Positions 2 to 22,434 of a stretch of 64,000 nucleotides of DNA are shown here, piece after piece. Location of the stretch: the NCBI GenBank assembly GCA_947259495.1, contig CAMYLV010000007.1:1-64000 (forward strand). The letters run 5' to 3'. Position 1 is the stretch's first letter; the number at the start of each line of letters is the position of its first letter. Under the pieces are notes generated by a model, which saw only the letters and a list, made by a program, of their open reading frames with translations, was not told the DNA's origin and ran no database searches. Made by a program: the position numbers and the translations under genes. This DNA comes from an uncultured Desulfobacterales bacterium (lineage in GTDB: Bacteria; Desulfobacterota; Desulfobacteria; Desulfobacterales; JAHEIW01).

Positions 2-1211
2 ATCCTTCAATCCGGACCGGTCCCCACCACCGATTTGCGGGCCCCGATGATTTTAGGCTCCGGCAGTGCTTCTTTTGAGATCCTGCGCTATCTGGTGGAG
101 CATCTGCCGGTGATGACGACACCACGCTGGGTGTTTTCGCTCAATCAGCCGATTGCCATCCGCAATGTGGTCCATTATCTGGTGGGATGCCTCGCGCACC
201 ATGAAACCATCGGACAGACTTTTGACATCGGTGGTCCGGATGTCCTGACCTACCGCAAACTATTGGATATCTATGCTGAAGAAGCTCATCTGCGCAAACG
301 TTGGATCATACCGGTGCCGGTCCTTACACCGACCTTGAGTGCTTACTGGATTCACTTTATCAGCCCGGTTCCCGCTTCTATTGCCCTGCCGCTGACCGAA
401 GGCTTGACCAGTGCGGCGGTCTGCGCCGAAAACCGCATTCAGTCGATTATTCCCCAGAAGCTCCTGAGCTGCCGTGAAGCAATACGTCTGGCGTTGGAAC
501 GGGTTAAACAGGAACAGGTGGATAGTTGCTGGACCGATGCCGGCAAGTTTATACAGCCCGAGTGGGCTCACTGCGGTGATGCCGAATGGGCCGGCGGTAC
601 GATCCTGAAATGCGGCTATCGGGCCAAAATCAGCGCGCCCGCAGAGGCGCTCTGGGATCCAATCCATAAAATCGGCGGCCGCCGCGGCTACTATTTTGGC
701 GACACGCTCTGGCGGTTGCGGGGCTGGATCGATCGGCTGGTTGGAGGACCGGGTCTTGGCCGGGGAAGTTCCAACCGGGCAGGCCGATCGGTGGGGGAAG
801 CGGTCGATTTCTGGCCGGCTGGTTGGAGGACCGGGTCTTGGCCGGGGAAGTTCCAACCGGGCAGGCCGATCGGTGGGGGAAGCGGTCGATTTCTGGCGGG
901 TTCTTGAGGTGGAGGTACCCCATCGCCTGGTGTTGCTTTCTGAAATGAGAGCGCCCGGGGAGGCTTTACTCGAATTTCAAATCAGCGCCATCGGTGAGCA
1001 AAGATCTGAACTACAGCTGATTTCCCGTTTTATGCCCAGAGGGCTTAGCGGATTTATTTACTGGTATGTGTTTTATCCGTTTCATCAATGGGTTTTTTCC
1101 GGCATGTTGAAATCCATAGCCAAACATACCGGAAAGAGCCTTGAACAGGGGCCGGAACGATTTACGCCCAAGCTGCATGACAGCTGCGCACTGCCGACCA
1201 GCGAATCCTGA
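2..1211 (+). pseudogene. NAD(P)-binding/DUF2867 protein, 5' truncated by window edge, frameshifted by an 82-bp tandem duplication
   Basis: The reading frame is already open at base 2, so the N-terminal Rossmann part lies outside the window. What remains looks like the substrate half of an NmrA-like NAD(P)-binding protein (FDIGGPDVLTYRKLL) followed by a DUF2867 domain (GYYFGDTLWRLRGWIDRLVGG). The first frame stops at 907 after nonsense sequence. A second frame continues the family-like sequence (VGEAVDFWRVLEVEVPHRL, then LELISRFMP-type and YWYVFYPFHQWVF) to the stop at 1211. The switch falls exactly at an 82-bp direct duplication; deleting one copy joins both halves in one frame of about 375 residues. 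Genes of this type are often found beside photolyase genes, which fits the downstream context. It may be a true pseudogene, a slippage-type switch, or an assembly error. Confidence 0.8.
734..897 (+). repeat. Exact 82-bp tandem duplication (two copies)
   Basis: Copy one is 734-815 and copy two 816-897; they are identical base for base and directly adjacent. 82 is not a multiple of three, so the duplication shifts the host DUF2867 gene out of frame. The second copy continues into the reading frame that carries the rest of the protein. Confidence 0.93.
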
Positions 1212-1815: not shown

Positions 1816-2280
1816 ATGAAACTCTATCGGCTCAAACGCAGCCAACACCTGCCCATAAGCCTTGAGACCGCCTGGGATTTTTTTTCCAATCCCGATAATC
1901 TTCAGCACATCACACCCGTCTGGCTTGATTTTAAAATAACCAATCGTATCCCTGCGAAAATGCATACCGGCATGATCATCACTTACCGCCTCAAAACGCT
2001 GTTGGGTTTACCCACCACCTGGATTACCGAAATTACACATGTTGACGAGCCTGTGTTTTTTGTCGATGAAATGCGATTGGGCCCCTATCTATTCTGGCAC
2101 CATCAGCATCGGTTTATCGAAAAGATCGGAGGCATCGAAGTGCAAGATACGGTTTATTATGCCCTCAAATATGGTTGGCTTGGACAAATCCTGCACAATA
2201 TGGTAATACGCACCAAGCTGAATGACATTTTTGATTACCGGCAAACAGCTCTCAAAGCTATCTTTGAAAGCTGCCTTTAA
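1816..2280 (+). CDS. SRPBCC-superfamily ligand-binding protein
   Basis: 154 residues, cytoplasmic, single START/Bet v1-like fold. Family signs are the opening strand LKRSQHLPISLETAWDFFS, the NPDNLQHITP motif, then repeated beta strands (WITEITHVDEPVFFVDEM, FWHHQHRFIEK) and a C-terminal helix. These COG4276-type proteins bind a hydrophobic ligand in a deep cavity; the ligand is unknown here. Such a gene frequently sits in photolyase/SDR clusters. No clear Shine-Dalgarno precedes the ATG, so the exact start is less sure. It is followed after 41 bp by the multihaem cytochrome. Confidence 0.8.
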   Translation: MKLYRLKRSQHLPISLETAWDFFSNPDNLQHITPVWLDFKITNRIPAKMHTGMIITYRLKTLLGLPTTWITEITHVDEPVFFVDEMRLGPYLFWHHQHRFIEKIGGIEVQDTVYYALKYGWLGQILHNMVIRTKLNDIFDYRQTALKAIFESCL

Positions 2281-2321: not shown

Positions 2322-3821
2322 ATGAAGTGTTTTTTGTTCATCCTGACGTCCTGCACGTGTTTGCTGATCAACAGCCCTGCTTCGGCAGATGACTTGCCGC
2401 TCAGCGAAGCCAGTGCCGAATGCATCGATTGCCATTCATCGATTCATCCGGGCATTGTCAGCGGCTGGCAACAAAGCCGCCACGCCATGGTTACCCCCCA
2501 AAAAGCCATGGCGGTGAAAGGCGTCGCCCGCAAAGTTTCCAGCACGACGGTTCCTGAAGGTTTGCAAACCGTTGTGGTGGGCTGCGCTGAGTGCCATACG
2601 CTAAGACCCAAAGCCCATGCGGATACATTTGAGCACAATGGCTATGATATTCATGTGGTGGTCAGCCCTGATGACTGCCAGACATGTCATACAACCGAAA
2701 GAGAGCAATATGCTAAAAATATCATGGCGCATGCCTATGGGAATCTGGCCAATAACAGCCTCCATCAAAAGCATGAGCATGCCATTTTGGCGGCAACAAA
2801 ATTCGTAAACGGGAAAATGACGCAGTCGCCCGCCAACGATGCCACCCGGGCCGAAGCGTGCCTTTACTGCCATGGTACCAAACTGGTGCTGGCCGGCACT
2901 GAAACCCGTGACACTGAAGCCGCCGGTGAATTGGAATTTCCTATTATTAAAGGCTGGCCCAATCAGGGCGTGGGACGCATTAACCTGGACGGTAGCATGG
3001 GCGCCTGCTCGGCCTGCCACACCCGACACTCCTTTTCGATTGAAATAGCACGCAAGCCCTATACCTGCAAAGAATGCCATGTGGGACCCGACGTGCCGGC
3101 ATATAAGGTCTATGCCGCGAGCAAACACGGCAACATCTATTCAAGCAAACATGCCGACTGGGACTTCAAGTCTGTGCCTTGGACCATCGGCCAAGATTTT
3201 ACAGCCCCCACCTGCGCCACCTGTCATATCAGTCTATTGGTCAACACCGATGATGAGGTGGTGGTTGAAAGAACCCATCAGATGAACAATCGGCTGCCCT
3301 GGCGCATTTTAGGACTGATTTATGCCCATCCGCACCCCCTAAAACCCGATACCAGCATTATCCGCAACAAAGACGGCTTACCCCTGCCGACCGATCTTGA
3401 CGGTGGCTTCGCATCAAAATACCTCATCGATGAAAAAGAAATGGAAGCCCGCAAGCAAGCCATGCAGGCGGCCTGCCTCAATTGCCATGATACCTCCTGG
3501 GTCAACGGTCACTGGCAACGCTTTGAAAATACCATCAAAGAAACCAATGCCCAAACGCTGACCGCCACCCGGATCATGCAGGACATCTGGAAGTGCGGCC
3601 TGGCCAACCGGCAGGACAACCCCTATGACGAAGCCATTGAAAAAAAGTGGAGCTCCACCTGGCTGTTTTATTCCAATACCATCCGTTTTGCTTCTTCGAT
3701 GGCCGGCGGGGGAGATTATGGTGTATTTGCCGGCGGCCGCTATCAACTGTCCCGAACCTTACTAGAGCTCAACGACTGGCTGAAGCTGCAAAAGAAACTC
3801 GATGCCGCTTCAAAAAAATAG
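2322..3821 (+). CDS. Octahaem cytochrome c, hydroxylamine oxidoreductase-like
   Basis: 499 residues with a Sec signal peptide (hydrophobic core 3-20, likely cleavage near ASA-DD). Eight CxxCH haem sites are visible near residues 34, 88, 119, 180, 229, 249, 298 and 385, all spaced as in the HAO/octahaem family, plus the YAASKHGNIYSSKH segment typical of that family and a conserved aromatic C-terminal part (GDYGVFAGGRYQLS). HAO-type enzymes oxidise hydroxylamine or hydrazine; relatives in ammonifying anaerobes run in the reductive direction. The protein should be periplasmic. The start has a good AAGGAG. It lies in the same direction between SRPBCC and photolyase genes, an odd partner set. Whether the tyrosine that crosslinks to the catalytic P460 haem is present cannot be settled by eye, so the direction of catalysis is open. 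Confidence 0.85.
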   Translation: MKCFLFILTSCTCLLINSPASADDLPLSEASAECIDCHSSIHPGIVSGWQQSRHAMVTPQKAMAVKGVARKVSSTTVPEGLQTVVVGCAECHTLRPKAHADTFEHNGYDIHVVVSPDDCQTCHTTEREQYAKNIMAHAYGNLANNSLHQKHEHAILAATKFVNGKMTQSPANDATRAEACLYCHGTKLVLAGTETRDTEAAGELEFPIIKGWPNQGVGRINLDGSMGACSACHTRHSFSIEIARKPYTCKECHVGPDVPAYKVYAASKHGNIYSSKHADWDFKSVPWTIGQDFTAPTCATCHISLLVNTDDEVVVERTHQMNNRLPWRILGLIYAHPHPLKPDTSIIRNKDGLPLPTDLDGGFASKYLIDEKEMEARKQAMQAACLNCHDTSWVNGHWQRFENTIKETNAQTLTATRIMQDIWKCGLANRQDNPYDEAIEKKWSSTWLFYSNTIRFASSMAGGGDYGVFAGGRYQLSRTLLELNDWLKLQKKLDAASKK

Positions 3822-3850
3822 GCCATAACGTTACAATAGACGGTAAGCAT

Positions 3851-5248
3851 ATGAAACCTCAAGACATCCACGATTCACGGATTCAGTCATTGAACGATGA
3901 AGATTTGCGACGGGGTGACTTTGTGCTTTATTGGATGCAGCAGTCCCAACGGGCCGAATACAACCACGCCCTGGAATTTGCGGTGCAGCAGGCCAACCAA
4001 ATGGGGCAGGGTGTATTGGTGGTCTTCGGGCTGATGGACGATTACCCGGAAGCTAATTTGCGGCATTACACGTTTATGCTTGAGGGGCTTCAGGAGACGA
4101 AGACTGTGCTGGGCAAGCGCGGCATCAAAATGATCGTCAAAAAAGGCCATCCGGCTGATGTGGCCCTTGCCACCGGCCAAAAGGCATCCCTGATTGTGTG
4201 TGATTGCGGCTACCTTCGGCATCAACGGCAGTGGCGCAAAAAGGTCGCCCGAGGCGCCGGCTGCCGGGTGGTTCAAATCGAAAGCGATGTCGTCGTGCCG
4301 CTGCAGGTTGTTTCCGAAAAAGCCGAGTACGCGGCGCGCACCATACGCCCCAAAATCCATAAACATCTCAATGATTATCTGGTTGATTTCAAGCCGACGA
4401 AAATAAAAAAATCTTCTTTGCAGCTGAGAGTCAGCGGAATTAATCTGAACAATATTGATACGGTTTTAGCGAAAATGTCTCTGGATCCCAGTGTTGTGCC
4501 GGTCAGCCATTTGTTTAAAGGCGGCCCTGCGCAAGCAGGCAGGATATTCGCAGATTTTTTAGGCCAACGGTTCATAAACTATGTTGCAAACCGCAACCAA
4601 CCCCAGACCGATGATGTCTCCCACATGAGCAAATATTTACACTTCGGACAGATTTCACCGCTATATCTGGCTTTACAGATCCTGAAAACCGAAAAGCGTT
4701 TCAAAGAAGCCCAAGATGCATATTTGGAGGAATTGATCGTACGGCGCGAGCTGGCGATGAATTTTGTTCACTATACCCCGGATTATGACGCTTATACCTG
4801 TCTGCCAACCTGGGCGCAAAAGTCGCTGGCCGAGCACAAAAAAGATCAGCGTGAATATCGTTATACACGCCGGCAGCTGGAGAATGCCAAAACCCACGAT
4901 GATTACTGGAACGCGGCCATGCGGGAAATGAAGTCAACGGGATTCATGCACAATTACATGCGCATGTACTGGGGCAAAAAAATTCTGGAATGGTCCCAAA
5001 CCCCGGAACAGGCTTTCAAGACAACCCTGGCCATCAACAATAAATATTTTCTCGACGGCCGGGATGCCAACTCATACACCGGTGTGGCCTGGGTCTTCGG
5101 AGTGCACGATCGGGCCTGGTTCGAGCGGCCGATTTTCGGCAAAATCCGGTATATGGCGGCATCCGGGCTGGAGCGCAAATGCGATATCCAGGGTTATGTC
5201 AGAAAAGTGGATGCCCTGGAAAGACAAAGCAGAGGAGCGTCGGTTTAA
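3851..5248 (+). CDS. phr: Class II CPD photolyase (deoxyribodipyrimidine photolyase)
   Basis: About 465 residues. It uses light and FADH- to split cyclobutane pyrimidine dimers. The N-terminal alpha/beta antenna domain starts DFVLYWMQQSQRAEYNHAL, a class II hallmark, and the C-terminal FAD-binding helical domain holds MSKYLHFGQISPLYLAL, ELIVRRELAMNFVHY, GFMHNYMRMYWGKKI and NSYTGVAWVFGVHDRAW. The open frame extends further 5' to 3647, inside the cytochrome gene, but the ATG at 3851 matches the family start; the frame upstream of it reads antisense-like filler. It sits 29 bp after the cytochrome stop, so it is probably in the same transcript. The short C-terminal tail after the FAD domain is normal. 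Confidence 0.93.
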   Translation: MKPQDIHDSRIQSLNDEDLRRGDFVLYWMQQSQRAEYNHALEFAVQQANQMGQGVLVVFGLMDDYPEANLRHYTFMLEGLQETKTVLGKRGIKMIVKKGHPADVALATGQKASLIVCDCGYLRHQRQWRKKVARGAGCRVVQIESDVVVPLQVVSEKAEYAARTIRPKIHKHLNDYLVDFKPTKIKKSSLQLRVSGINLNNIDTVLAKMSLDPSVVPVSHLFKGGPAQAGRIFADFLGQRFINYVANRNQPQTDDVSHMSKYLHFGQISPLYLALQILKTEKRFKEAQDAYLEELIVRRELAMNFVHYTPDYDAYTCLPTWAQKSLAEHKKDQREYRYTRRQLENAKTHDDYWNAAMREMKSTGFMHNYMRMYWGKKILEWSQTPEQAFKTTLAINNKYFLDGRDANSYTGVAWVFGVHDRAWFERPIFGKIRYMAASGLERKCDIQGYVRKVDALERQSRGASV

Positions 5249-5536: not shown

Positions 5537-7078
5537 ATGGCCATCAAAAAGGTTTTACGACTTATTCTGGGCGATCAGCTGAATGAAAAGCACTCCTGGT
5601 TTCAAAAACCGGAGAAAGCGGTCACCTACGTGATGATGGAAATCCGTCAGGAGACCGACTACGTCAAGCATCACGTTCAGAAAGTGGTGGCCTTTTTTGC
5701 CGCCATGCGCGCCTTTGCCGAAGAACTCAAAGAAAAAGGGCACACCGTCATCTATCTGCGATTGGATGATCCGAAAAATCAACAAACCATCGCCGGCAAT
5801 ACCAAACAGCTACTTAAAGAAAAGCGCTATGCGCGTTTTGAGTATTTGCTGCCCGACGAACACCGTCTGGATGTTGATTTGCAAAAGATGGTCAAAACGC
5901 TTCCCGTTTCCTGGGAGGCGTTTGATACCGAGCATTTTCTCACCCTGCGGCAGGACTTTCAGGATTTTTTTGCCGGCAAAAAGCGCTATCTGATGGAATC
6001 CTTCTATCGCCAGATGCGCAAAAAGCATGATATTCTAATGGACGGTGACAAGCCGCTGGGCGGTCGCTGGAATTTTGATGTTGAAAATCGCCGGCGATAT
6101 GACGGCCGGGTTCCGATTCCCAAGCCTAAATTGTTTCGCAATGACGTCACTGAGCTTCACCAAATGATCGAGAAAGCTGGGGTAAAGACCTTTGGCACCA
6201 TCAAGCCCAAAAGTTTAATCTGGCCGATCAACCGGTCCCAGTCTCGATCTCTGTTAAACGCCTTTCTGAAAGACGGGCTCAAAGAATTCGGTACCTATCA
6301 GGATTCCATGACGACCGAAAGCTGGTCGGTATTCCACGCACGTATAGCGTTTGCGCTCAACACCAAAATGTTGCACCCGCTGGAAGTCATCGAAGCGGCC
6401 GTGCGAACCTGGGAACAGCAAAAGCGCGCCATCAAAATTCAACAGATTGAAGGCTTTGTGCGGCAGATATTGGGCTGGCGCGAATATATGCGCGGCATCT
6501 ATTGGACCCTGATGCCGAAGCTGGGGCGTCTGAATTTTTTCAACCACCAAGCCACATTGCCCGATTATTACTGGACGGCCGAGACAAAAATGCGATGTAT
6601 GCAGGCCGCACTCGGTCAATCGCTTGAGCATGCTTATGCCCATCACATCCAGCGCCTGATGGTTACCGGAAATTTTGCTCTGCTGGCCGGCGTGCATCCC
6701 GATCAAGTCGAAGAATGGTATCTGGGTGTTTACATCGATGCCATCCAGTGGGTTGAGCTGCCCAATACCCGGGCAATGAGCCAGTGGGCCGACGGGGGTC
6801 TGGTCGCCACCAAGCCGTATGTGTCTTCAGCCAACTACATCAACAAAATGAGTGATTACTGCAGCCAATGCAGCTACGATCGTCAGAAAGCACAGGGAGA
6901 ATCTGCCTGTCCATTCAACTGCCTGTTCTGGGATTTTTTTAGCCGGCATCAACCGAAACTGCAAAACAACCCCCGTATTGGCATGATGTACCGGACCTGG
7001 AATCGCAAAGACCCAAAAGATCAGAAGCGCATTTTAAAGCAGGCGGAATTCTACAAGCAGGATTTAAACAGACTTTAG
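5537..7078 (+). CDS. FeS-type cryptochrome/photolyase (bacterial (6-4) photolyase family)
   Basis: 513 residues. It belongs to the FeS-BCP/CryPro family (COG3046), whose studied members repair (6-4) photoproducts or act as blue-light sensors, carrying FAD and a [4Fe-4S] cluster. The N-terminus KVLRLILGDQLNEKHSWF is diagnostic, and the FAD domain has GGRWNFDVENRRRY, RQILGWREYMRGIYW and QWVELPNTRAMSQWADGG. The four cluster cysteines are visible: one in KMRCMQAALG, two in DYCSQCSYD, and one in ESACPFNC. It follows the class II enzyme after a 288-bp gap containing an inverted repeat. The start ATG is preceded by GGGGAGCA. With both enzyme classes, repair of both main UV lesions is likely. Confidence 0.92.
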   Translation: MAIKKVLRLILGDQLNEKHSWFQKPEKAVTYVMMEIRQETDYVKHHVQKVVAFFAAMRAFAEELKEKGHTVIYLRLDDPKNQQTIAGNTKQLLKEKRYARFEYLLPDEHRLDVDLQKMVKTLPVSWEAFDTEHFLTLRQDFQDFFAGKKRYLMESFYRQMRKKHDILMDGDKPLGGRWNFDVENRRRYDGRVPIPKPKLFRNDVTELHQMIEKAGVKTFGTIKPKSLIWPINRSQSRSLLNAFLKDGLKEFGTYQDSMTTESWSVFHARIAFALNTKMLHPLEVIEAAVRTWEQQKRAIKIQQIEGFVRQILGWREYMRGIYWTLMPKLGRLNFFNHQATLPDYYWTAETKMRCMQAALGQSLEHAYAHHIQRLMVTGNFALLAGVHPDQVEEWYLGVYIDAIQWVELPNTRAMSQWADGGLVATKPYVSSANYINKMSDYCSQCSYDRQKAQGESACPFNCLFWDFFSRHQPKLQNNPRIGMMYRTWNRKDPKDQKRILKQAEFYKQDLNRL

Positions 7079-7343: not shown

Positions 7344-8564
7344 ATGATGAAAAAAATATCCGAGGACGTTCTGGCAAGCATAGAATTTGACGTATCCTAC
7401 AATCACAACGGCATACAGCACACCGACTGTTATTACGGACAACGGATCAATTTATGGCGAGATATTTTACCCCCGCCGCTGCTCGAGGCAATCCACGACC
7501 AACAAAGCGGAGCTCAAGTTGTCCTGGATGTTCAACCCAGCACATGGGTAGCTGCCAGAGATGAACGCAAAATTTATAAATTCCAACAACGGCAGATTTT
7601 AGCCCTTTCTCCGCAGACGGACCCGATTCAGCCGCGATTCGGTCGATTTTATCCCCTGGGGATTCTTAAGACTGTAGCGGGAGTCTACCCCAACAATATA
7701 ACGCCTTTTCGCTGTGTATCTGCCAATGGGGACGGCATTAAGGCTGATGCCAATCATGCGCTAACGGAGAAACCGCTTAAGTTTAAAGCGATCATCAAAG
7801 ACGTGCGTGACAAGTTTGAAGAGCATGGCGGCACCAGCATTGACTGGGTCGAGACCGCCCTCAGCGGGCCGGGGATGCAGGCGCGGGTAAACGGGAATCC
7901 GACAGATTTTTTTGCGGACCATCCCTTCCGCAGAGCCGATGAAAGTCCGGACCACCGATTTTACGAGCAGCCGCGTCTGGTGCAACATATCGATGACACC
8001 GCTATTGATATCATCAGGCGTCTGAATGGCAGGCTGCTGCAACCCGAATCCAAGGTTCTGGATTTGATGAGCAGCTGGGTGTCTCACCTGCCGGAAGATT
8101 TTCCCATAAAGTCTCTCACCGGCCTTGGAATGAATCAAGAAGAACTGCAGGCCAACCGTCGGCTGAACGATTATTGTGTTCACGACCTGAACGCCAAGCC
8201 GCAAATGCCCTTTGGCGACCACGCTTTCGATGCGGCGATCTGCACCGTCTCGGTTGAATATTTAGTTCATCCTTTTGAGGTCTTTGAAGAAATCAAGCGG
8301 ATTCTCAAACCGGGGGGCTTATTTATCGTGACCTTTTCCAACCGCTGGTTTCCGCCCAAAGCGATCAGCATCTGGCCGGAGCTGCACGAATTTGAACGCA
8401 TGGGACTGGTACTTGAATTCTTTTTAAAATCCGGTCAATATACCGACCTGCAGACTTATTCCATGCGGGGACTGCCGCGACCGGCAGATGATAAGTATTC
8501 TTCCCAGATTCTGTATTCGGATCCGGTATACGCCGTGTGGGGACATACCCGCAAAGATCAATAA
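7344..8564 (+). CDS. SlyD/FKBP-like domain fused to a SAM-dependent methyltransferase
   Basis: 406 residues. Roughly residues 15-155 resemble a SlyD-type FKBP fold: FGRFYPLGIL, then FRCVSANGDGIKADANHAL and KPLKFKAIIKDV, which mirrors the VDxNHPLAGKxLxF core of SlyD. Residues about 215-390 are a class I methyltransferase (KVLDLMSSWVSHL for the SAM loop, GMNQEEL, FDAAICTVSVEYLVHP, ILKPGGLFIVTFSNRW). The glycine-rich SAM loop is degenerate (DLMSSW instead of DxGxGxG). Substrate unknown. It follows the FeS photolyase in the same direction after a palindromic repeat. Two adjacent ATG codons could start it. The domain reading of the N-terminal half is by pattern only. Confidence 0.7.
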   Translation: MMKKISEDVLASIEFDVSYNHNGIQHTDCYYGQRINLWRDILPPPLLEAIHDQQSGAQVVLDVQPSTWVAARDERKIYKFQQRQILALSPQTDPIQPRFGRFYPLGILKTVAGVYPNNITPFRCVSANGDGIKADANHALTEKPLKFKAIIKDVRDKFEEHGGTSIDWVETALSGPGMQARVNGNPTDFFADHPFRRADESPDHRFYEQPRLVQHIDDTAIDIIRRLNGRLLQPESKVLDLMSSWVSHLPEDFPIKSLTGLGMNQEELQANRRLNDYCVHDLNAKPQMPFGDHAFDAAICTVSVEYLVHPFEVFEEIKRILKPGGLFIVTFSNRWFPPKAISIWPELHEFERMGLVLEFFLKSGQYTDLQTYSMRGLPRPADDKYSSQILYSDPVYAVWGHTRKDQ

Positions 8565-8598: not shown

Positions 8599-9258
8599 AT
8601 GTTCAAAGCAGAAGACGATGGCAAAACCGGCAGCGCAGGCCAGAAGCGCAAAACCCAGCCTGTCAATGCTGAGCGCTTTACACGCCAGATTGAATTTATT
8701 GTTGAGGCGGATAAACTAAAAAAAGTTGAGCGCAGGACCACACTGCTCGATCGTTCCCGTCAGGAGAACTCGGCCGAGCATTCCTGGCACATTGCGCTGC
8801 TGGTCCTGGTTTTATCCGAATACGCCGAAAACCAGAATTTAGATCTGCTGCGGGTGATCAAACTGCTGTTGATCCACGATCTGGTTGAAATCGATGCCGG
8901 TGACACTTACTGCTATGACGAAAGCGGTGGTCTGGATCAAAAAAAGCGTGAAACCAAAGCTGCTGATCGAATTTTCAACATCCTGCCAAGCGATCAGGCC
9001 GATTCTTTCCGGTTTCTGTGGGACGAGTACGAATCCCGAAAAACACCTGAATCACGGTTTGCCAATGCCCTGGATCGGGTGCAACCCTTCTTACACAATT
9101 ATCTTACGCGCGGTTACACCTGGCAAAAACACGGCATCCAAAAAAAACAGGTCGTTGCGCGAATGCAGCCGGTCAATGATGGCTCACGCTTTTTATGGGA
9201 TTATGTCTCCAGCCTCATCGAGGATGCGGTTGCGAAAGGGTTTCTGGCAAACAAATAA
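8599..9258 (+). CDS. HD-domain hydrolase, YfbR/HDDC2-like (5'-deoxynucleotidase family)
   Basis: 219 residues. The metal-binding HD signature is complete: ENSAEHSWHIALL gives the first His, LLIHDLVEIDAGDTY the HD pair, and ANALDRVQPFLHNYL the final Asp. This matches the YfbR/HDDC2 group, which dephosphorylates deoxynucleoside 5'-monophosphates. About 30 basic, poorly conserved residues precede the domain. The start at 8599 has GGAG eight bases upstream. It is followed after 3 bp by the ABC ATPase, so the two are probably co-transcribed. A role in nucleotide pool cleaning beside the photolyases is plausible but inferred. Confidence 0.85.
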   Translation: MFKAEDDGKTGSAGQKRKTQPVNAERFTRQIEFIVEADKLKKVERRTTLLDRSRQENSAEHSWHIALLVLVLSEYAENQNLDLLRVIKLLLIHDLVEIDAGDTYCYDESGGLDQKKRETKAADRIFNILPSDQADSFRFLWDEYESRKTPESRFANALDRVQPFLHNYLTRGYTWQKHGIQKKQVVARMQPVNDGSRFLWDYVSSLIEDAVAKGFLANK

Positions 9259-12707: not shown

Positions 12708-13853
12708 ATGAAACGACGATCTGAGAAATTTGCCTTTACGCTTTTGTGTCTTTTTCTGATGACTGCCCTGGCGGGTCATAAAGTGATGGCTGAAGATCAG
12801 AATGGCTATTTAACGGTGACTGGGCCATGCCATCCAACATTCCCGAAAGACCACGGACCGCATCCGGGTTATCGCACAGAGTGGTGGTATTATACGGGCA
12901 ATCTGCTGGCCGCATCAGGCAATCAATATGGATACCAGTTGACGTTTTTTCGCAGCCAGATCAGCCCATCTGATACAACCACGAACTGGCCCCGGCCGTC
13001 GTCCGCCTGGCGAACCCAGCAGGTTTTTGTGGGGCATGCCGCCATTTCAGATTTGAGTAAAAAGAAGCACCGGCATGCCGAACTAATGGCCAGGGAAGCA
13101 CTGGGAATGGCAGGCGCCTCTCAAAAGACGGCTGCAACCACTGTTTTTATTAAAAACTGGTCAACCACAATTGGCGCTGATAGCCACGTTTTGGCAGCTC
13201 ATACGGCTGACTTTTCAATTGATTTGACCCTGCAGCCGGCCAAACCACCAGTTTTGCACGGTCAGGCGGGTTACAGTCGCAAAGGGTCAACTGCCAAAAA
13301 GGCAAGCTGCTATTACTCTCTGACGCGTCTGATTTCAAAAGGAATGCTGAAGATTGATGGCAAAACAATTGCAGTTGAAGGCTTAAGCTGGATGGATCAT
13401 GAGTACAGTACGGACCCCCTGGAAGCGGGCATTGTTGGTTGGGACTGGCTTAGCCTGCAGCTTTCCGATCAAACCGAGCTGATGCTCTTTTTTCTCAGAC
13501 AACAGAACGGGGAAATACACCCGGCATCCAGCGGCACCTTTGTCGATCGATCGGGGAGGCCGCAACATTTAACCAGAGAAGATTTCAGCTTCACAGCCCT
13601 GAAGCAGTGGCAAAGTCCCCGATCCAATGCAGTTTATCCGGTAGCCTGGCACTTAAATATTTTGCCGCTCGCGATTGAATTAACGATCGTTGCCAATCTA
13701 AACGATCAGGAGATGGTGACGGCGGCAACTACGGGGGTTACCTACTGGGAAGGCAGCGTATCGGCAACCGGTACGCTTGCCGAGCAGCCCGTAAGGGCTG
13801 ACGGATATGTAGAACTGACCGGTTATGCGAAAGCTTTTCGTGCTCCGCTGTAA
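12708..13853 (+). CDS. AttH/CrtC-like lipocalin-domain protein (secreted)
   Basis: 381 residues with a Sec signal peptide ending near VMA-EDQ. Family motifs are clear: HPGYRTEWWYYTGNL near the N-terminus, GLSWMDHEYSTDPL in the middle, and GVTYWEGSV plus GYVELTGYA at the end. The family includes carotenoid 1,2-hydratase (CrtC) and AttH; most members beside an FtsX-type ABC exporter are thought to handle lipids, and no carotenoid genes are in view here. It lies 147 bp after the permease, so it may have its own promoter. An enzymatic or a lipid-carrier role are both possible; carotenoid hydration is unlikely from context. Confidence 0.85.
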   Translation: MKRRSEKFAFTLLCLFLMTALAGHKVMAEDQNGYLTVTGPCHPTFPKDHGPHPGYRTEWWYYTGNLLAASGNQYGYQLTFFRSQISPSDTTTNWPRPSSAWRTQQVFVGHAAISDLSKKKHRHAELMAREALGMAGASQKTAATTVFIKNWSTTIGADSHVLAAHTADFSIDLTLQPAKPPVLHGQAGYSRKGSTAKKASCYYSLTRLISKGMLKIDGKTIAVEGLSWMDHEYSTDPLEAGIVGWDWLSLQLSDQTELMLFFLRQQNGEIHPASSGTFVDRSGRPQHLTREDFSFTALKQWQSPRSNAVYPVAWHLNILPLAIELTIVANLNDQEMVTAATTGVTYWEGSVSATGTLAEQPVRADGYVELTGYAKAFRAPL

Positions 13854-15484: not shown

Positions 15485-15991
15485 ATGTGCAGTAAATTAA
15501 AATTTGCAAACAAAATTCATTCGATTACAGCGCCAAACTATTTTGTAAGTGTTTTTATTTTTGCACTCGCCCTTGTTTCTGTTTTATTGGCTTATGATTG
15601 CAAGGATGCGCTTTCCATGGATTTAACGCAATTTGAATGGAAAAACCGATTGCTTTTGCTTTTTGCGCCGGATAGCAACGATCCGCACTTTATGCTTTTA
15701 CAGGGTGAAATCAGCGCAAAAAAAACTGAAGTCGAAGATCGTGATTTAAAGGTTTTTGAAGTACTTGAAAGCGGTCCCTCTCGAATGAACGAAACCCCCA
15801 TAGAATCACAGAAGGCAAATGCGCTGCGCGATCATTTCGCGATACCCCAGAATACTTTCGCTCTAATTCTGGTGGGCAAAGATGGTGGTGTAAAACTCAA
15901 GCGTGACGATCAGGTCTACTTGGCAGAAGTTTTTGAACGGATCGATTCGATGCCCATGCGCAGAAATGAGATGCGCCAAAAAAACCAATAA
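15485..15991 (+). CDS. DUF4174 protein
   Basis: 168 residues. A hydrophobic segment at about 22-38 suggests a signal anchor or signal peptide, followed by a thioredoxin-like DUF4174 core: FEWKNRLLLLFAPDSNDPHF, DRDLKVFEVLE, then ILVGKDGGVKLKRD and a helix with the frequent family ending IDSMPMRRNEMR. No CxxC redox pair is present. The family is commonly found near photolyase, SDR and DUF1365 genes, agreeing with its place here. It is divergent from the hypothetical pair on the minus strand, with 93 bp between. Confidence 0.8.
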   Translation: MCSKLKFANKIHSITAPNYFVSVFIFALALVSVLLAYDCKDALSMDLTQFEWKNRLLLLFAPDSNDPHFMLLQGEISAKKTEVEDRDLKVFEVLESGPSRMNETPIESQKANALRDHFAIPQNTFALILVGKDGGVKLKRDDQVYLAEVFERIDSMPMRRNEMRQKNQ

Positions 15992-16086
15992 TTTCTAACT
16001 TTCACCGCAGATGGATGCTCTGCAATCAGCAAAACTCGCTGGCGATCGTGAATACAGCAAAATTAGGAATTTGAGGAGGAATATTT

Positions 16087-16800
16087 ATGGGCACCAACAA
16101 TTATCTTATCGTCGGCGGCAGTTCCGGCATTGGTCTCGAAATTGTCAAAGCGCTTCGTGAAGAAGATCATGACGTCTACGTGGGTTCACGCACGAATGAT
16201 ACCCTAACCCAAATGGATGGTTTGCATCATTTTGCGCTCGATGTGACAGCGGATCCGATTAGCTTTGAGGGATTACCCGAAACGTTAAATGGCCTGGTGT
16301 ACTGTCCGGGGACCATTCGACTCAAACCCTTTCATCGTCTGACAATCGATGACTTTTTAGACGATTTGCAGGTTAATTATTTGGGAGCGGTAAAGACGAT
16401 TCAAGCTTGTCTGCCCCGTTTAAAAAAATCGACAACCGGCGCTGCCATTGTGCTGTTCAGTACAGTGGCCGTCAAAACCGGTATGCCGTTTCATGCCTCC
16501 GTCGCCGGCGCCAAGGCGGCGGTGGAGGGCTTAACGCGCTCACTGGCCGCTGAATTTGCGCCCCGTATGCGCGTGAATGCGATTGCGCCCTCACTAACCG
16601 ACACCCCTCTGGCACAGGGTTTGTTGTCCAGTGAAGATAAACGCAAAGCATCGGCAGAGCGCCACCCATCAAAGCGGATCGGCACACCCCAGGAAATCGC
16701 TCAAGTAGCCGTCCATTTGCTGTCGGAAGCGAGTGCCTGGATGACCGGCCAGATCATACATGTCGATGGGGGCATGAGCGCATTGCGAACCTTCAGATGA
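16087..16800 (+). CDS. SDR-family protein lacking the catalytic Tyr
   Basis: 237 residues. The cofactor motif GGSSGIGLE and the structural NAG-like position are present, and the end (MTGQIIHVDGGMSALR) is typical of classical SDRs. The active site reads FHASVAGAKAAVEGL where YxxxK is expected, so the catalytic Tyr is replaced by Val while the Lys stays. Members of this subgroup beside photolyase/CFA genes often share such a changed site (from memory). It may bind nucleotide without classic dehydrogenase activity. GGAGGA precedes the ATG. It is 14 bp before the next gene, so co-transcribed. Confidence 0.87.
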   Translation: MGTNNYLIVGGSSGIGLEIVKALREEDHDVYVGSRTNDTLTQMDGLHHFALDVTADPISFEGLPETLNGLVYCPGTIRLKPFHRLTIDDFLDDLQVNYLGAVKTIQACLPRLKKSTTGAAIVLFSTVAVKTGMPFHASVAGAKAAVEGLTRSLAAEFAPRMRVNAIAPSLTDTPLAQGLLSSEDKRKASAERHPSKRIGTPQEIAQVAVHLLSEASAWMTGQIIHVDGGMSALRTFR

Positions 16801-16814
16801 TAAGGAATTAACTG

Positions 16815-17792
16815 GTGCAGAAAGTCTTGGTTACCGGGGCTACCGGCTTTATCGGCATCGAAGTCTCCAGGCAATTAGCGGAGCGGGGCATGCGCCCCAG
16901 ACTGATGGTCAGGCGTCCTGTGCGCGGGCTGATGCTCAAAAATCTGGAGGCTGAAATCATGCAGGCCGATCTCCGCAGCCCCGAAAGCCTGGATCGTATT
17001 CTCAACGGGATCGACACCGTTATCCATCTGGGGGCGCGCGCTGCTTTTGAAACCTATCCGCGAGTGTTTCCATCTATTGTCAAGGGTTCCCTGAATCTCA
17101 TGCAGGCTGCTATCAAAGCGCGTGTCAAAAACTTTGTGTTTAGCAGCAGTTTACTGGTCTACGGGGATAGCGCCAGGCCGATCGATCAACACACAGAACC
17201 TTCACCGATGTCCGGGTACGGACGGGCCAAGCTTGAAGCCGAACAGCGCATGGCTGAGATGGCTGCCGCTGCCGACATCCGCTTTGTATCCTTGCGTCTG
17301 TCACATGTTTATGGAGCCCACAGCCTGTTGTTTGACCGCATTCGGCACGGGCAGATCTTCTTTCCGGGGAAAGGGGAAAATGCATTTGCGCACATTCACA
17401 TTTATGACGCGGCCCGGGCCCTCATCCAGGCCGCTGAGAACGGCCGATCGGGTATCTGGGTTGTGGCCGATAATTTATCCTGCACCTGGAATGATTTTTT
17501 TGAAACACTACAAATCTACCATCCACGACTGCGCGTGATGCACATCCCGCGCGTGATTTCTTACGTGGGTACAACTATTTTATCTGTTTTCTTTAAATTA
17601 ACCGCCCAGCCAAATCCATATCCCAGCGGCGCCATTTCGTGTTGGAATCTGCGTTTACCGGTTGTACCGGGAACGATCCGTCAAGCGATTGGTGGGGAAC
17701 CTCAGTTTCCAACCATCCACCAGGGTATTCCCGACGTATTGGACAACTCCATTTCTTTTTATTGGTTGCCGTCCAATCTTGATCGATCATAA
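16815..17792 (+). CDS. NAD-dependent epimerase/dehydratase (extended SDR)
   Basis: 325 residues starting at GTG with TAAGGA upstream. Rossmann motif GATGFIG at the N-terminus, Ser in FVFSSSLLVYGD, and catalytic YGRAK with Lys follow the extended SDR pattern; the C-terminal part is the variable substrate domain. Known family members act on nucleotide sugars, sterols or flavonoid-like ketones; no specific substrate can be named. It follows the Tyr-less SDR closely. After its stop a short IR (ACCCC/GGGGT) with no T-run is seen. Confidence 0.85.
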   Translation: MQKVLVTGATGFIGIEVSRQLAERGMRPRLMVRRPVRGLMLKNLEAEIMQADLRSPESLDRILNGIDTVIHLGARAAFETYPRVFPSIVKGSLNLMQAAIKARVKNFVFSSSLLVYGDSARPIDQHTEPSPMSGYGRAKLEAEQRMAEMAAAADIRFVSLRLSHVYGAHSLLFDRIRHGQIFFPGKGENAFAHIHIYDAARALIQAAENGRSGIWVVADNLSCTWNDFFETLQIYHPRLRVMHIPRVISYVGTTILSVFFKLTAQPNPYPSGAISCWNLRLPVVPGTIRQAIGGEPQFPTIHQGIPDVLDNSISFYWLPSNLDRS

Positions 17793-17950
17793 AACCCCAT
17801 CGGGGTAGAACCGTATAATCGCCCATTATCCCATAATGTTATTGAATTTTTCGCGCAAATCCTTTAAGTATTGGTGGTGTCCTTCCCGGCCAAACCTTCA
17901 TCCGAGATACTCGTGTAACTTGAGATATTATTATCAAAAAAGTTTTGACT

Positions 17951-18916
17951 ATGACAAAAGTCAGCCATAGCACTAAAAAACCATCTCTCCTGCTGTCGAT
18001 CTGGCGCTGGTTCGACGCAGATGCATCTACTGATGAAACGCCGAGCGCCAACATTAAGAAAGTCGATTGGTTTCGCATCATTCCATTTGTGATCATGCAC
18101 CTGATGTGTTTGGGCGTCATCTGGGTGGGGTGGAGCTGGTTTGCCGTTTTGACGGCTGCCGGGCTTTATTTCATTCGGATGTTTGCCATTACCGGATTCT
18201 ACCATCGATATTTTTCCCACAATGCTTTCAAAACCAATCGGTTCTGGCAATTTTTGTTTGCAGCCATCGGCAATTCCTCCGTTCAGCGCGGACCGCTGTG
18301 GTGGGCAGCGCATCATCGCCATCACCACCGCTATGCAGACACAGAAAAAGACATCCATTCACCCAGCCGGCACGGCTTTATCTGGAGCCACATGGGGTGG
18401 TTAACCTCACCTGCGAATTTTCCGACCCAAATGAAGTATGTGAAAGATTGGGCTAAATATCCTGAGCTGCGCTGGATCAATCGTTTTGATATTGTCATTC
18501 CGGTTCTTTTAGCTGTCGCTTTATTTGCAGCTGGCATACTGCTTGAGATCCATGTGCCCCGGCTGGGAACCAACGGCCCCCAGCTGCTGATCTGGGGCTT
18601 TTTTATTTCTTCGGTTGCCCTTTTCCACGGAACGGTGACGATCAATTCGTTTGATCATATGATCGGCCGCCGGCGCTATGATACCCCGGATACCAGTCGA
18701 AACAATGCGGTTTTAGCCCTGATTACTTTGGGTGAGGGGTGGCATAACAATCACCATCATTATGCGATTTGCGCGCGCCAGGGATTTTACTGGTGGGAAA
18801 TAGATATGACCTACTACCTTCTCAAAATTTTTTCCTGGCTGGGCATCGTCTGGGACCTGCGGGGCTTGCCGGAAGGCTTGCGAGAACAAAATAGAGTGGT
18901 CACCGACATCCCTTAA
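17951..18916 (+). CDS. Membrane fatty-acyl (delta-9 type) desaturase
   Basis: About 321 residues from the ATG at 17951 (a TTG two codons earlier is an alternative). Four to five hydrophobic segments and the three histidine boxes of acyl-CoA/acyl-lipid desaturases are visible: HRYFSH, HRHHHR and HNNHHH. A di-iron centre inserts a double bond and needs O2, noteworthy if the host is an anaerobe. GLPEG near the C-terminus is also family-like. The product would be an unsaturated chain that the CFA synthases downstream can use. It is followed by the FAD protein after 50 bp. Confidence 0.92.
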   Translation: MTKVSHSTKKPSLLLSIWRWFDADASTDETPSANIKKVDWFRIIPFVIMHLMCLGVIWVGWSWFAVLTAAGLYFIRMFAITGFYHRYFSHNAFKTNRFWQFLFAAIGNSSVQRGPLWWAAHHRHHHRYADTEKDIHSPSRHGFIWSHMGWLTSPANFPTQMKYVKDWAKYPELRWINRFDIVIPVLLAVALFAAGILLEIHVPRLGTNGPQLLIWGFFISSVALFHGTVTINSFDHMIGRRRYDTPDTSRNNAVLALITLGEGWHNNHHHYAICARQGFYWWEIDMTYYLLKIFSWLGIVWDLRGLPEGLREQNRVVTDIP

Positions 18917-18966
18917 CGCAATTGATAAACCTGTATTCATCGCTAATACATTGAGGAGCAATCCAC

Positions 18967-20211
18967 ATGCGAATCGCTGTCATCGGAACCGGCATTGCAG
19001 GCATGGTGAGTGCATATCTGCTCAGTGACGACCATGAACTGGTCGTTTTTGAGGCCGAGGATTATGTCGGCGGTCACACGAACACCATTGATGTCGGTTC
19101 GAATGGCCAGACGTATGCGGTGGACACCGGTTTTATTGTATTCAACGAGAAAACCTATCCCAATTTTGTGCGGTTGATGCAACGTCTGGGCATTGCCTGG
19201 CAACCTTCCAATATGAGCTTTAGTGTGCAGTGCAAAAAGACCGGATTGGAATTTAGCCCCAGCAGTTTGAATTCGCTTTTCATCCAGCGCAGGAACCTGC
19301 TGCGGCCATCGTTTTACAGGATGATATTCGATATATTTAAATTCAGGCGAGAATCCGAAGAGCTCCTCAAAAGCGATGACTACACCTTGACGCTTGAAGA
19401 TTTTCTGGCCGCCAAGAAGTTTTCACGGCTTTTTGTCGAGCATTTTATAATTCCCATGGGCGAAGCCATCTGGTCTGCGGATCCGGCTAAATTCAACGAG
19501 TTTCCGGCCCTGTATTTTGCTCAGTTTTTTAAAAACCATGGTTTTCTGAACTTGCGCCATCAGCCCCAATGGCTGGTCATCAAGGGAGGCTCGAAACAGT
19601 ATGTGGAGCCTCTAACCCGGCCTTTTCGAGACCGCATTCGCCTCAATTGTCCGGTAAAAGCCATTCGGCGGTATCCGGATCATGTCAGCTTGCAGGCTGC
19701 GAACGGTGAGCCAGAGCGCTTTGATCAGGTGATTATCGCCACCCACAGCGATCAGGCCCTGGCGATGCTGCAGGATCCGACAGACAGCGAAAAAGAAATC
19801 CTGGGGGCCATCCCATATCAGAACAATCATGCGGTCTTGCATTCAGACGAATCGGTTTTGCCCCGTAAAAAGGCCGCCTGGGCCAGCTGGAATTACCATA
19901 TACCGCAAGCGGAGCTGGATCGGGTGGCCCTTACTTATAATTTGAATATCTTGCAAAGTTTAGGTGCTCCAGTCGAATACTGCGTTACACTCAATTTGCC
20001 GAACACTGTTGATGCGGCTAAAAAAATCAAAGAAATGATTTATCATCACCCGGTTTATAATCCCAAAAGCCTGGTTGCCAGAAATCGCCATCAAGAGATC
20101 AACGGTGCCAAGCGTACCTATTTCTGTGGGGCCTATTGGGGATATGGATTCCATGAGGATGGGGTTAATAGCGCATTGGTGGTGGGAAAACATTTCGGGA
20201 AATCCCTCTAA
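18967..20211 (+). CDS. FAD-dependent amine-oxidase-like protein of the DUF1365/CFA cluster
   Basis: 414 residues. FAD-binding Rossmann motif GTGIAGMVSAYLL, then EAEDYVGGHTNTIDV and DTGFIVFNEKTYPNF, the hallmark of the COG2907 family. The C-terminus YFCGAYWGYGFHEDGVNSAL is also characteristic. In Rhodobacter a related gene set next to a CFA-type methylase is needed to make furan fatty acids, an antioxidant lipid, so a fatty-acyl oxidase or desaturase role is likely. TTGAGGAG precedes the ATG. It is 157 bp upstream of DUF1365. Confidence 0.9.
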   Translation: MRIAVIGTGIAGMVSAYLLSDDHELVVFEAEDYVGGHTNTIDVGSNGQTYAVDTGFIVFNEKTYPNFVRLMQRLGIAWQPSNMSFSVQCKKTGLEFSPSSLNSLFIQRRNLLRPSFYRMIFDIFKFRRESEELLKSDDYTLTLEDFLAAKKFSRLFVEHFIIPMGEAIWSADPAKFNEFPALYFAQFFKNHGFLNLRHQPQWLVIKGGSKQYVEPLTRPFRDRIRLNCPVKAIRRYPDHVSLQAANGEPERFDQVIIATHSDQALAMLQDPTDSEKEILGAIPYQNNHAVLHSDESVLPRKKAAWASWNYHIPQAELDRVALTYNLNILQSLGAPVEYCVTLNLPNTVDAAKKIKEMIYHHPVYNPKSLVARNRHQEINGAKRTYFCGAYWGYGFHEDGVNSALVVGKHFGKSL

Positions 20212-20368
20212 ATCGGAGTGCCAGCTGGTTTTATACGGTCCGGTCTGGACTTCACTTACTCCCTGAAAGACCTCAGCAATAATCTTCGTCTTTGTGCTGA
20301 CGAAAAGCATTTGATGCTTATTATAGAAGAATTTAATTACACTGCTTAATTCGCAGCCAGGATCACCT

Positions 20369-21151
20369 ATGCACAGTTGCATCTATGAGGGCACCATTCG
20401 ACATCGCCGGTTCAGGCCAACGCCCAATATGTTTCGATATCGCCTGTTCTTCATGTACTTAGACCTGGCAGAATTGCCCTCTGTGTTCGACAGGCATCCG
20501 CTCTGGTCTTCTCGGCGGCGGAATATCGCTTATTTTCGCCGCAAAGACCACTTCGGCGATCCGAAACAGCCGATCGATCAGGCGGTGCGTGAGCTGGTTG
20601 CCGAAAAAACCGGACGGCCACCCGAGGGCCCGATTCGGATGCTGACCCATTTGCGATATTTCGGCTATTGTTTTAATCCGGCCAGCTTTTATTATTGTTA
20701 CGACGCAACGGACTCAAGGGTTGAGACCATTATCGTTGAAATACACAACACGCCCTGGGGCGAGGTGCATTGCTATGTTTTGAACCGGGAGCAAAACGAA
20801 CATCCGATCGCAAACTGGCGGCGGCATCGCTTTGAAAAGGTTTTTCATGTTTCGCCGTTTATCGATATGAATATCGATTATGATTGGCGATTTCGCGAAC
20901 CCGACACTTCTATTCGCGTGCATATGATCGACTATGAGAACGGACAGAAACTTTTTGATGCCAGCCTTTCACTAGTACGTCGTGAGATCAGTCCCCGGGC
21001 CCTGACCCATGTGCTGATTAAGTACCCGCTGATGACCGCCAAGGTCACCACCCTGATTCACTGGCAGGCCCTGCGGTTGTTGCTTAAAAAGACCCCTTTT
21101 TTTGCTCATCCAAAAAAACGCAAACCAGGCGGAGAGAGATATCACCCATGA
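20369..21151 (+). CDS. DUF1365 family protein
   Basis: 260 residues. The family start IYEGTIRHRRFRP is clear, with the central motif YFGYCFNPASFYYCYD and HVSPFIDMNIDYDWRF. Function is not established; it is nearly always found between the FAD amine-oxidase-like gene and the CFA synthase, as here. The stop overlaps the CFA start by 4 bases (ATGA), so the two are translationally coupled. Probably acts on lipid or in presenting it to the methylase; inference from context. Confidence 0.93.
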   Translation: MHSCIYEGTIRHRRFRPTPNMFRYRLFFMYLDLAELPSVFDRHPLWSSRRRNIAYFRRKDHFGDPKQPIDQAVRELVAEKTGRPPEGPIRMLTHLRYFGYCFNPASFYYCYDATDSRVETIIVEIHNTPWGEVHCYVLNREQNEHPIANWRRHRFEKVFHVSPFIDMNIDYDWRFREPDTSIRVHMIDYENGQKLFDASLSLVRREISPRALTHVLIKYPLMTAKVTTLIHWQALRLLLKKTPFFAHPKKRKPGGERYHP

Positions 21152-22434
21152 CCGCATCGATTATGCCTTCAGACGCGTCGGCACTCGAAAACATCCCGAC
21201 TCGCCCGACGGACGGGCTGGCCCGAAAATTTCTTTTTGGAATTCTGCGCAAATTAGAGCGCGGTAAAATCATCATCCTTGAAGGTCCGCAGCGTCATGTT
21301 TTCGGCCATTCAAGCACCGCTTTTCCACTCGAGGCGGTTATTACCGTTTATCATCCCCGATTTTACAGCAAAGCTGTACTGGGTGGCAGCATCGGCAGCG
21401 CGGAGGCATACATGAGCGGTTTTTGGTCGGCAGACGATCTGACCACCGCGCTGCGTATCATGGCCTTGAATCGCGATAGTTTTGAGCGCCTGGATAAGGG
21501 CTGGTCAAAGCTCACAGCCCCGCTGAACAGAATATGGCATTTTCTACGCAAAAATACGCGCAGCGGAAGCCGTAAAAATATCGTGGCCCATTATGATTTG
21601 GGCAATGATTTTTATCGACTGTTTTTAGACGAAACCCTGACCTATTCCTGCGGTATATTCACGGCTGAAGGCAACAGCATGCGAGATGCTTCGCTTGCCA
21701 AGTATGATCGCATCTGTCGAAAGCTCGAGCTGGGCCCCGATGATGACGTGATTGAAATCGGATCCGGCTGGGGCGGCTTTGCCATTTATGCCGCTCAAAA
21801 ATTCGGCTGCAGGGTCACCACAACCACGATTTCCGGCCAGCAATTCAAACTGGCCAAACAGCGCATTGCAGATTCCGGCGTGGCCGATCGCATTGATCTG
21901 GTCATGAAGGACTACCGGGATCTGAAGGGAAAATTTAGTAAACTGGTTTCAATCGAAATGATCGAGGCCGTCGGACATCACTATCTGGATGCCTATTTTC
22001 GATCCTGCAGCCGGTTGCTCAAGCCAGACGGCATGATGCTGCTGCAGGCGATTACGATTGCCGATCAACTGTTCGAGCACCACAAGCGCTCGGTTGATTT
22101 CATCAAGCGCTATATTTTTCCGGGTAGCTGCATCCCGTCCATTGCTGCCATAACCGCTTCAATCGCCAAGGCGACCGACCTGCGTCTTTTTCATCTGGAA
22201 GATATCACACCGCATTATGCCAAAACCCTGGCTTGCTGGCGGGAGCAGTTTTTCGATAACATCGATGATGTCAAAGGGCTTGAATACTCAGAGGCTTTTA
22301 TTCGCATGTGGGATTATTATTTCAGTTACTGTGAAGCGGGTTTTGCGGAGCGCTATATTGGCGATGTGCAGATGCTGTTTACCAAACCCATGTGCCGACG
22401 CGCGTCTTTAATCCCTGATTTAACCACCTGCTAA
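21148..22434 (+). CDS. cfa: Cyclopropane-fatty-acyl-phospholipid synthase family methyltransferase
   Basis: 428 residues. N-terminal lipid-binding part (GGSIGSAEAYMSGFW) and C-terminal SAM domain with VIEIGSGWGGFAIYAA, then MIEAVGHHYLDAYF and the FIKRYIFPG motif containing active-site residues. It methylates or cyclopropanates the double bond of phospholipid acyl chains, the product supplied by the desaturase upstream. In photolyase clusters the homologue (UfaM/CfaA type) makes methylated precursors of furan fatty acids. A second, shorter family member is encoded on the minus strand at 26.6 kb. Confidence 0.93.
   Translation: MTASIMPSDASALENIPTRPTDGLARKFLFGILRKLERGKIIILEGPQRHVFGHSSTAFPLEAVITVYHPRFYSKAVLGGSIGSAEAYMSGFWSADDLTTALRIMALNRDSFERLDKGWSKLTAPLNRIWHFLRKNTRSGSRKNIVAHYDLGNDFYRLFLDETLTYSCGIFTAEGNSMRDASLAKYDRICRKLELGPDDDVIEIGSGWGGFAIYAAQKFGCRVTTTTISGQQFKLAKQRIADSGVADRIDLVMKDYRDLKGKFSKLVSIEMIEAVGHHYLDAYFRSCSRLLKPDGMMLLQAITIADQLFEHHKRSVDFIKRYIFPGSCIPSIAAITASIAKATDLRLFHLEDITPHYAKTLACWREQFFDNIDDVKGLEYSEAFIRMWDYYFSYCEAGFAERYIGDVQMLFTKPMCRRASLIPDLTTC

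Follow-up and report, generated by a model that had tools for sequence, protein, structure and literature searches.

An octahaem cytochrome of the IhOCC clade neighbours a class II photolyase in Desulfobacterales and oxygen-defence genes elsewhere in the phylum

In Nitrosomonas hydroxylamine oxidoreductase (HAO), P460 is the product of a cross-link made by Tyr467, and the catalytic haem site of the nitrite reductases NrfA and ONR is CxxCK. The described protein closest to the cytochrome analysed here is PDB entry 4qo5, which we take to be IhOCC (Igni_0955) of Ignicoccus hospitalis and which is reportedly a trimer that reduces nitrite and hydroxylamine. Asp267 and His268 are named as functional residues of HAO in passages of PMC3814345, and excerpts of three further papers associate the lack of the P460 tyrosine with reductive enzymes (PMC12758564, PMC8940962, PMC2628731). 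A passage of PMC9213671 calls the cellular role of tyrosine-less HAO-fold cytochromes unclear, including that of the Campylobacterota enzymes for which in vitro work exists. In sections of a mat study, hao ranks with the most abundant nitrogen genes and none of the 52 has the tyrosine, a count that covers tyrosine-less hao of any clade (PMC8940962). Light-responsive operons, as described in parts of PMC11417400, combine photolyase, a B12-dependent MerR repressor (class II LitR) and RudS, which removes 4-thiouridine from tRNA and is often found in such operons.

The stretch of DNA that we analysed (the window, 64,000 nucleotides of an uncultured Desulfobacterales genome) starts at base 1 of its contig (C7) and contains at 2322..3821 on the + strand an open reading frame of 499 aa with an ATG start. 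Its product has eight CxxCH sites, starting at residues 34, 88, 119, 180, 229, 249, 298 and 385; as all eight are CxxCH, no CxxCK site of the NrfA/ONR type was found in it. Eight CxxCH sites are present in 42 of 42 aligned orthologue rows, and a Sec-type signal peptide was judged by eye at the N-terminus. Its Pfam match is PF13447, of the multihaem/HAO group, at E 4.5e-20 and 72.5 bits vs a cut-off of 21.9. A sequence search of the PDB returned 8 distinct sequences altogether, with 4qo5 on top (E 3.5e-113), 6h5l (KuHAOr) next (E 3.4e-19), and then HAO, HOX-type and HDH chains; a profile of the 42 orthologues is likewise nearest to 4qo5 among PDB entries. An AlphaFold2 model reached a mean pLDDT of 76.8, with residues 231-277 below 50, and a Foldseek search with it gave six matches with E <0.001, all of the HAO family and 4qo5 first, at low TM-scores (0.26-0.44). 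The predicted model suffices to indicate the family, and its region around haems 5-6 is too weak to read the active site. The original prediction of an octahaem HAO-like cytochrome at this position is thus borne out by the eight CxxCH sites and the PF13447 and 4qo5 matches. With eight c-type haem sites and the HAO fold, the protein belongs to the HAO-fold octahaem superfamily; judged by its sequence, it is a member of the IhOCC clade, being closest to 4qo5 and having the same active-site pattern, without Tyr467 and without His268.

Homologues of the cytochrome are found in 123 of 389 genomes of the order (E 1e-60 or better) and in 100 of 395 genomes of the phylum (1e-100 or better; 9 inside the order and 91 outside), so it is common across the phylum and no peculiarity of one genome. 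The relatives with names are metagenome-assembled genomes labelled Desulfobacterales, Desulfobulbaceae, Deltaproteobacteria and Desulfatitalea. The source genome encodes a second HAO-like octahaem protein (G000:C4:170477-171607), 35% identical, which retains His268 and carries the motif APDYAWWHG. Four members of this other HAO-like class (L120, L128, L129, L140) have nine CxxCH sites in frames of 728-732 aa, against the usual 460. In one locus (G002:C1:1729668-1730138) the cytochrome is reduced to a 152-residue C-terminal match beside phr2 and DPRP, a decaying or broken copy.

Residues at the active site were compared in an alignment that set the 42 orthologues beside 6h5l, 4qo5, residues 236-494 of Nitrosomonas HAO and 13 rows from the other HAO-like class. 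Such an alignment had been proposed with the original prediction as a check for the P460 cross-linking tyrosine, and the tyrosine proved absent: the position of Tyr467 holds Val468 in the window protein and Val in 41 of 42 orthologues (Thr in one). At the position of His268 the window protein has Val258 and the orthologues have Val in 41 of 42 rows and Ala in one; Asp occupies the position of Asp267 in all 42. An invariant Tyr466 was considered as the P460 tyrosine and ruled out, the NeHAO residue 467 aligning two columns further, on Val468. The cytochrome shares with IhOCC the best sequence and fold match, eight haems, the lack of Tyr467, Val at 268 and Asp at 267 (4qo5 reads Thr, Val and Asp at 467, 268 and 267); it differs in having Val vs Thr at 467 and Tyr vs Trp at 465, with 39% identity over the Foldseek alignment. 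Nitrosomonas HAO (1fgj, 4fas) and the anammox HOX/HDH enzymes have the superfamily, eight haems and Asp267 in common with the cytochrome, but Nitrosomonas HAO has both the P460 tyrosine and His268, of which the cytochrome has neither (HOX/HDH stand outside that alignment). KuHAOr (kustc0458, 6h5l) and the order's other HAO-like class, which includes the second octahaem protein of the source genome, are also without Tyr467, but they keep His268 (13 of 13 rows of the other class, with Trp in eight and His in five at position 467).

Because Tyr467 and His268 are both replaced, the aligned residues indicate that the cytochrome is not an oxidative HAO, and the loss of Tyr467 speaks for reductive and against oxidative chemistry; with His268 gone, it is uncertain whether haem 4 is catalytic. 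The "HAO family" label of the original prediction therefore stands for the superfamily and falls for a hydroxylamine-oxidising HAO, and its suggestion that the protein reduces a nitrogen compound gains as far as reductive chemistry is concerned.

The gene for a class II DNA photolyase (phr2, 3851..5248, +; TIGR00591 E 9.4e-153; PF00875) starts 29 bp past the cytochrome stop on the same strand, and the gap, strand and model matches agree with the pairing first noted, at a TIGR00591 score of 509.8 bits that lies below the model cut-off of 550.05. Upstream lie an SDR-DUF2867 gene (2..907, +; PF11066 E 2.1e-8, SDR part by eye) whose 5' end is cut by the contig start, a 103-aa ORF without a match and a 154-aa SRPBCC-like gene (1816..2280, +) assigned by eye only, with no Pfam or NCBIfam match, which precedes the cytochrome in several relatives too. 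The SDR-DUF2867 gene is broken by a perfect 82-bp tandem duplication at 734-897 (2.0 copies, 100% match); its length of 82 bp is not divisible by 3, and the reading frame stops at 907. Homologues in two other loci (L041, L042) are 89-92% identical over 813 bp, and the duplication is either a true mutation or an assembly artefact. Downstream of phr2, all on the + strand, follow a deoxyribodipyrimidine photolyase-related protein (DPRP, 5537..7078; PF04244 E 5e-80), a methyltransferase (7344..8564; PF08241 E 3.3e-10), an HD-domain protein (8599..9258; PF13023 E 2.5e-52), an ABC ATPase (9262-9975, by eye), an FtsX permease (9972-12560; PF02687) and a CrtC-type lipocalin protein (12708..13853; PF07143, PF17186). 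Genes for DUF4174, SDR, a second SDR-like protein (by eye), fatty-acid desaturase, FAD amine oxidase, DUF1365 and CFA-type synthase at 15485..22434 (+; PF13778, PF13561, PF00487, PF01593, PF07103, PF02353) are a probable continuation of the island. A 331-aa ORF on the - strand (14396-15391) without a Pfam match interrupts this long + strand gene run.

The gene for RudS (2-thiouracil desulfurase and DUF1722) lies on another contig of the genome, C38, where the beginning of an SDR gene comes after it; because the end of that stretch overlaps the start of the window by 99 identical bases, RudS very probably belongs to the cytochrome-phr2 island. Like the LitR-type operons, the island thus has photolyase and RudS together, but it differs in including the octahaem cytochrome. 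LitR-type operons are controlled by an adenosyl-B12 MerR repressor; the source genome has one MerR-B12 gene, encoding a MerR protein with two B12-binding domains in a LitR/CarH layout (G000:C5:98170), on another contig (C5). That this LitR/CarH-like layout occurs in a presumed anaerobe is a separate observation.

Within the order, phr2 is present in 102 of 389 genomes (E 1e-60) and both genes in 58, and 26 of these 58 genomes, spanning 10 families, keep them no more than 5 kb apart, so the pairing is conserved and no local accident. Eighteen of the 26 close pairs lie within 160 bp on the same strand, as measured between match edges; phr2 is upstream of the cytochrome in four genomes (G047, G059, G084, G105) and lies on the opposite strand in three (G188, G291, G324). 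In the remaining 32 genomes with both, the genes are apart or on different contigs. A promoter-like match just ahead of phr2 (3809-3837, 9-of-12) was ruled out as evidence for a private phr2 promoter, being at chance level (6 sites found vs 5.7 expected in the region). A separate phr promoter together with the lack of a conserved neighbourhood had been named at the outset as the finding that would count against the pairing; the neighbourhood is kept, and the promoter match is the one just described. The pairing had also been called unusual, which is true of the open-access literature searched (subscription papers fall mostly outside it), where we found no paper that connects a cytochrome of this kind to photolyase or to desulfoferrodoxin/rubrerythrin groups, and untrue in the sense of a local accident. 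In five loci of the order (L052, L054, L058, L060, L072), the place of phr2 is taken by a YeeE/YedE-like membrane gene (by eye), roughly 2 kb downstream from where the cytochrome gene starts.

To compare neighbourhoods we read 85 loci of the order (80 of the 123 matching genomes plus 5 further loci that may repeat genomes; L043 was dropped, being on the same contig as L035) and 40 loci from the 91 matching genomes outside it. Contig ends are near in the order, where 32 of 85 loci hold <5 kb on a side. At least one light marker occurs in 34 of the 85 order loci (phr2 24, RudS 19, SDR-DUF2867 16, DPRP 9, SRPBCC-like 8), and a marker lies within 1 kb of the cytochrome in 30; none of the five markers was present in the 40 loci read outside the order, including the flanks within 1 kb (0/40). 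Other recurrent neighbours in the order are the HD-domain protein (16), the methyltransferase (15) and FtsX (11), and also flavin-barrel and PEP-synthase-like genes.

Oxygen-defence gene groups of anaerobes comprise PerR, rubrerythrin, desulfoferrodoxin, ferritin and flavodiiron protein. The same gene families adjoin the cytochrome orthologues in 17 of the 40 loci outside the order (15 families), always on the strand of the cytochrome; these groups differ from the known ones in having a predicted exported octahaem cytochrome as a member, and the window itself is not so arranged, the desulfoferrodoxin of the source genome being on contig C13. Two or more such genes are found in 13 of the 40 loci, and one each in L196, L198, L218 and L219. 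Inside the order, oxygen-defence genes are near the cytochrome in only 3 of 85 loci; within 1 kb, the counts are 11 of 40 for the phylum loci and 1 of 85 for the order loci. Clustering of the neighbours of 83 orthologue loci outside the light island (island loci left out by hand, families in at least 5 loci) recovered the flavodiiron type in 9 loci, desulfoferrodoxin in 7 (in four of them directly downstream of the cytochrome), rubrerythrin in 6, ferritin in 6 and the Fur type in 5. Pfam agrees with the oxygen-defence gene names. Flavodiiron matches are mostly 25-33% identical and Fur-type matches 46-53% to one query; the latter class covers Fur and PerR together. The commonest neighbour family, an ABC ATPase (11 of 83 loci), was judged generic.

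Twenty control regions of 18 kb from the same genomes, at round coordinates chosen by the analyst (11 in the order and 9 outside), contained no light or oxygen marker (0/20), the 9 outside the order being the lineage-matched ones for oxygen genes; two of the 20 matched a non-marker gene (methyltransferase, flavin barrel). The other HAO-like class, sampled inside the order with flanks of about 1 kb (average 0.9-1.05 kb), had light markers at 0 of 33 loci and an oxygen gene at 1 of 33, vs 1 of 85 for the cytochrome. Relatedness inflates such neighbourhood counts, and Fisher p-values, which take no account of it, were given no weight. When the labels were mapped on a tree of 125 proteins, light required 13 changes (mean of the shuffles 30.0) and oxygen 12 (18.0), with 0 of 500 shuffles as low in either case; of these changes, the starred branches of the tree make at least 5 necessary for light and at least 4 for oxygen. 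The low numbers of changes together with the forced ones imply that each association is in part a matter of inheritance and in part of repeated gain or loss. Neither context was seen in 72 of the 125 rows, which stand unlabelled, partly because contigs end.

Since the hydroxylamine-oxidising residues are missing and the neighbourhoods are a light island and oxygen-defence genes, the cytochrome probably serves as a protective reductase and not as an enzyme of the nitrogen cycle. With a probability of about 0.6, we read it as an exported, reductive periplasmic detoxification cytochrome with a protective role in two stress contexts. The protein would be exported to the periplasm, probably as a trimer, would draw electrons from the periplasmic cytochrome pool and may reduce a small toxic oxidant at haem 4. 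It would be co-expressed with its stress neighbours, its job being protection and not nitrification or growth-supporting respiration. Within the order, a light/UV-damage island with class II photolyase, DPRP, RudS and SDR-DUF2867 would have recruited it; in many of its relatives from the rest of the phylum, oxygen-defence groups that include a Fur/PerR-type regulator, rubrerythrin, desulfoferrodoxin, ferritin and flavodiiron protein would have done so. The idea, put forward at the outset, of detoxification under light or oxygen stress gains support as to its stress context from the conserved light-damage island in the order and the oxygen-defence neighbours outside it. Among reactive nitrogen species, nitrite, NO and hydroxylamine would be the likeliest substrates, and hydrogen peroxide is the main alternative. 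NO and reactive oxygen species arise when light acts on nitrite or nitrate, or when oxygen enters an anoxic cell; each of the two substrate classes would therefore fit both contexts. Within a stress-defence role we would, roughly and by judgement, rank nitrogen species foremost at somewhat less than even odds and let peroxide and other compounds divide the remainder equally. In a bolder form, which we offer tentatively and would ourselves wager against, the IhOCC clade of the phylum might be a dedicated periplasmic oxidant-detoxifying enzyme on the HAO fold (for peroxide or NO, and not for nitrogen respiration), an exported counterpart of rubrerythrin and superoxide reductase, with one lineage re-wired from an oxygen-defence regulon to a light/UV regulon with photolyase.

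The missing residues bear most directly on a true hydroxylamine- or hydrazine-oxidising HAO/HDH, to which the superfamily match and the fold would point; with the P460 tyrosine and the catalytic histidine both absent, and with 66 bits against a cut-off of 900 in the NCBIfam hydrazine dehydrogenase model, we give this identity almost no credence. A reductive enzyme could instead serve respiration, as a nitrite or hydroxylamine reductase (reverse-HURM or ammonification type) or a sulfur-compound reductase, with the stress neighbourhood secondary. Precedents exist in passages that propose nitrite ammonification by tyrosine-less HAO-like proteins in Nautilia and Deferribacter (PMC2628731, PMC6896113, PMC13186404) and sulfur metabolism for an HAO-related octahaem protein in Tharpellota (PMC9213671). 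The Deferribacter Hao, however, is encoded with Nap and Hcp genes according to parts of PMC6896113 and PMC13186404. Nitrate, nitrite and sulfur reductase genes did not turn up among the recurrent neighbours here (families in at least 5 of the 83 non-light loci, a general list rather than a targeted search), and we regard a respiratory role as unlikely while taking it seriously.

A non-catalytic conduit or sink that feeds electrons to other periplasmic or outer-membrane proteins appears improbable in view of the active-site Asp, invariant in 42 of 42 orthologues, and of IhOCC, which is itself said to reduce nitrite and hydroxylamine; what recommends it is the loss of His268 and, in a passage of PMC4429474, the reduction of Igni_0955 (the 4qo5 protein) by hydrogenase. 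Genomic hitchhiking might also account for the neighbourhoods: descent alone would then keep the stress genes beside the cytochrome, with no common function. The labels are indeed clustered on the tree (13 changes for light vs a shuffled mean of 30.0), so part of the neighbourhood count is inheritance. The starred branches, however, force at least 5 (light) and at least 4 (oxygen) changes, phr2 is variously downstream, upstream and on the opposite strand, and there are two different stress contexts, which leaves hitchhiking as the whole explanation a slim chance. A protective reductase thus remains our preferred reading.

The protein family, with its solved structure, was known already; its two stress neighbourhoods are new, in that we did not find them in print in the open-access literature searched. 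These neighbourhoods point to a specific and directly testable role for the cytochrome, namely defence against light and oxygen damage. They also carry a warning for the interpretation of metagenomes, in which tyrosine-less HAO-fold genes should not be counted as nitrogen-cycle hao.
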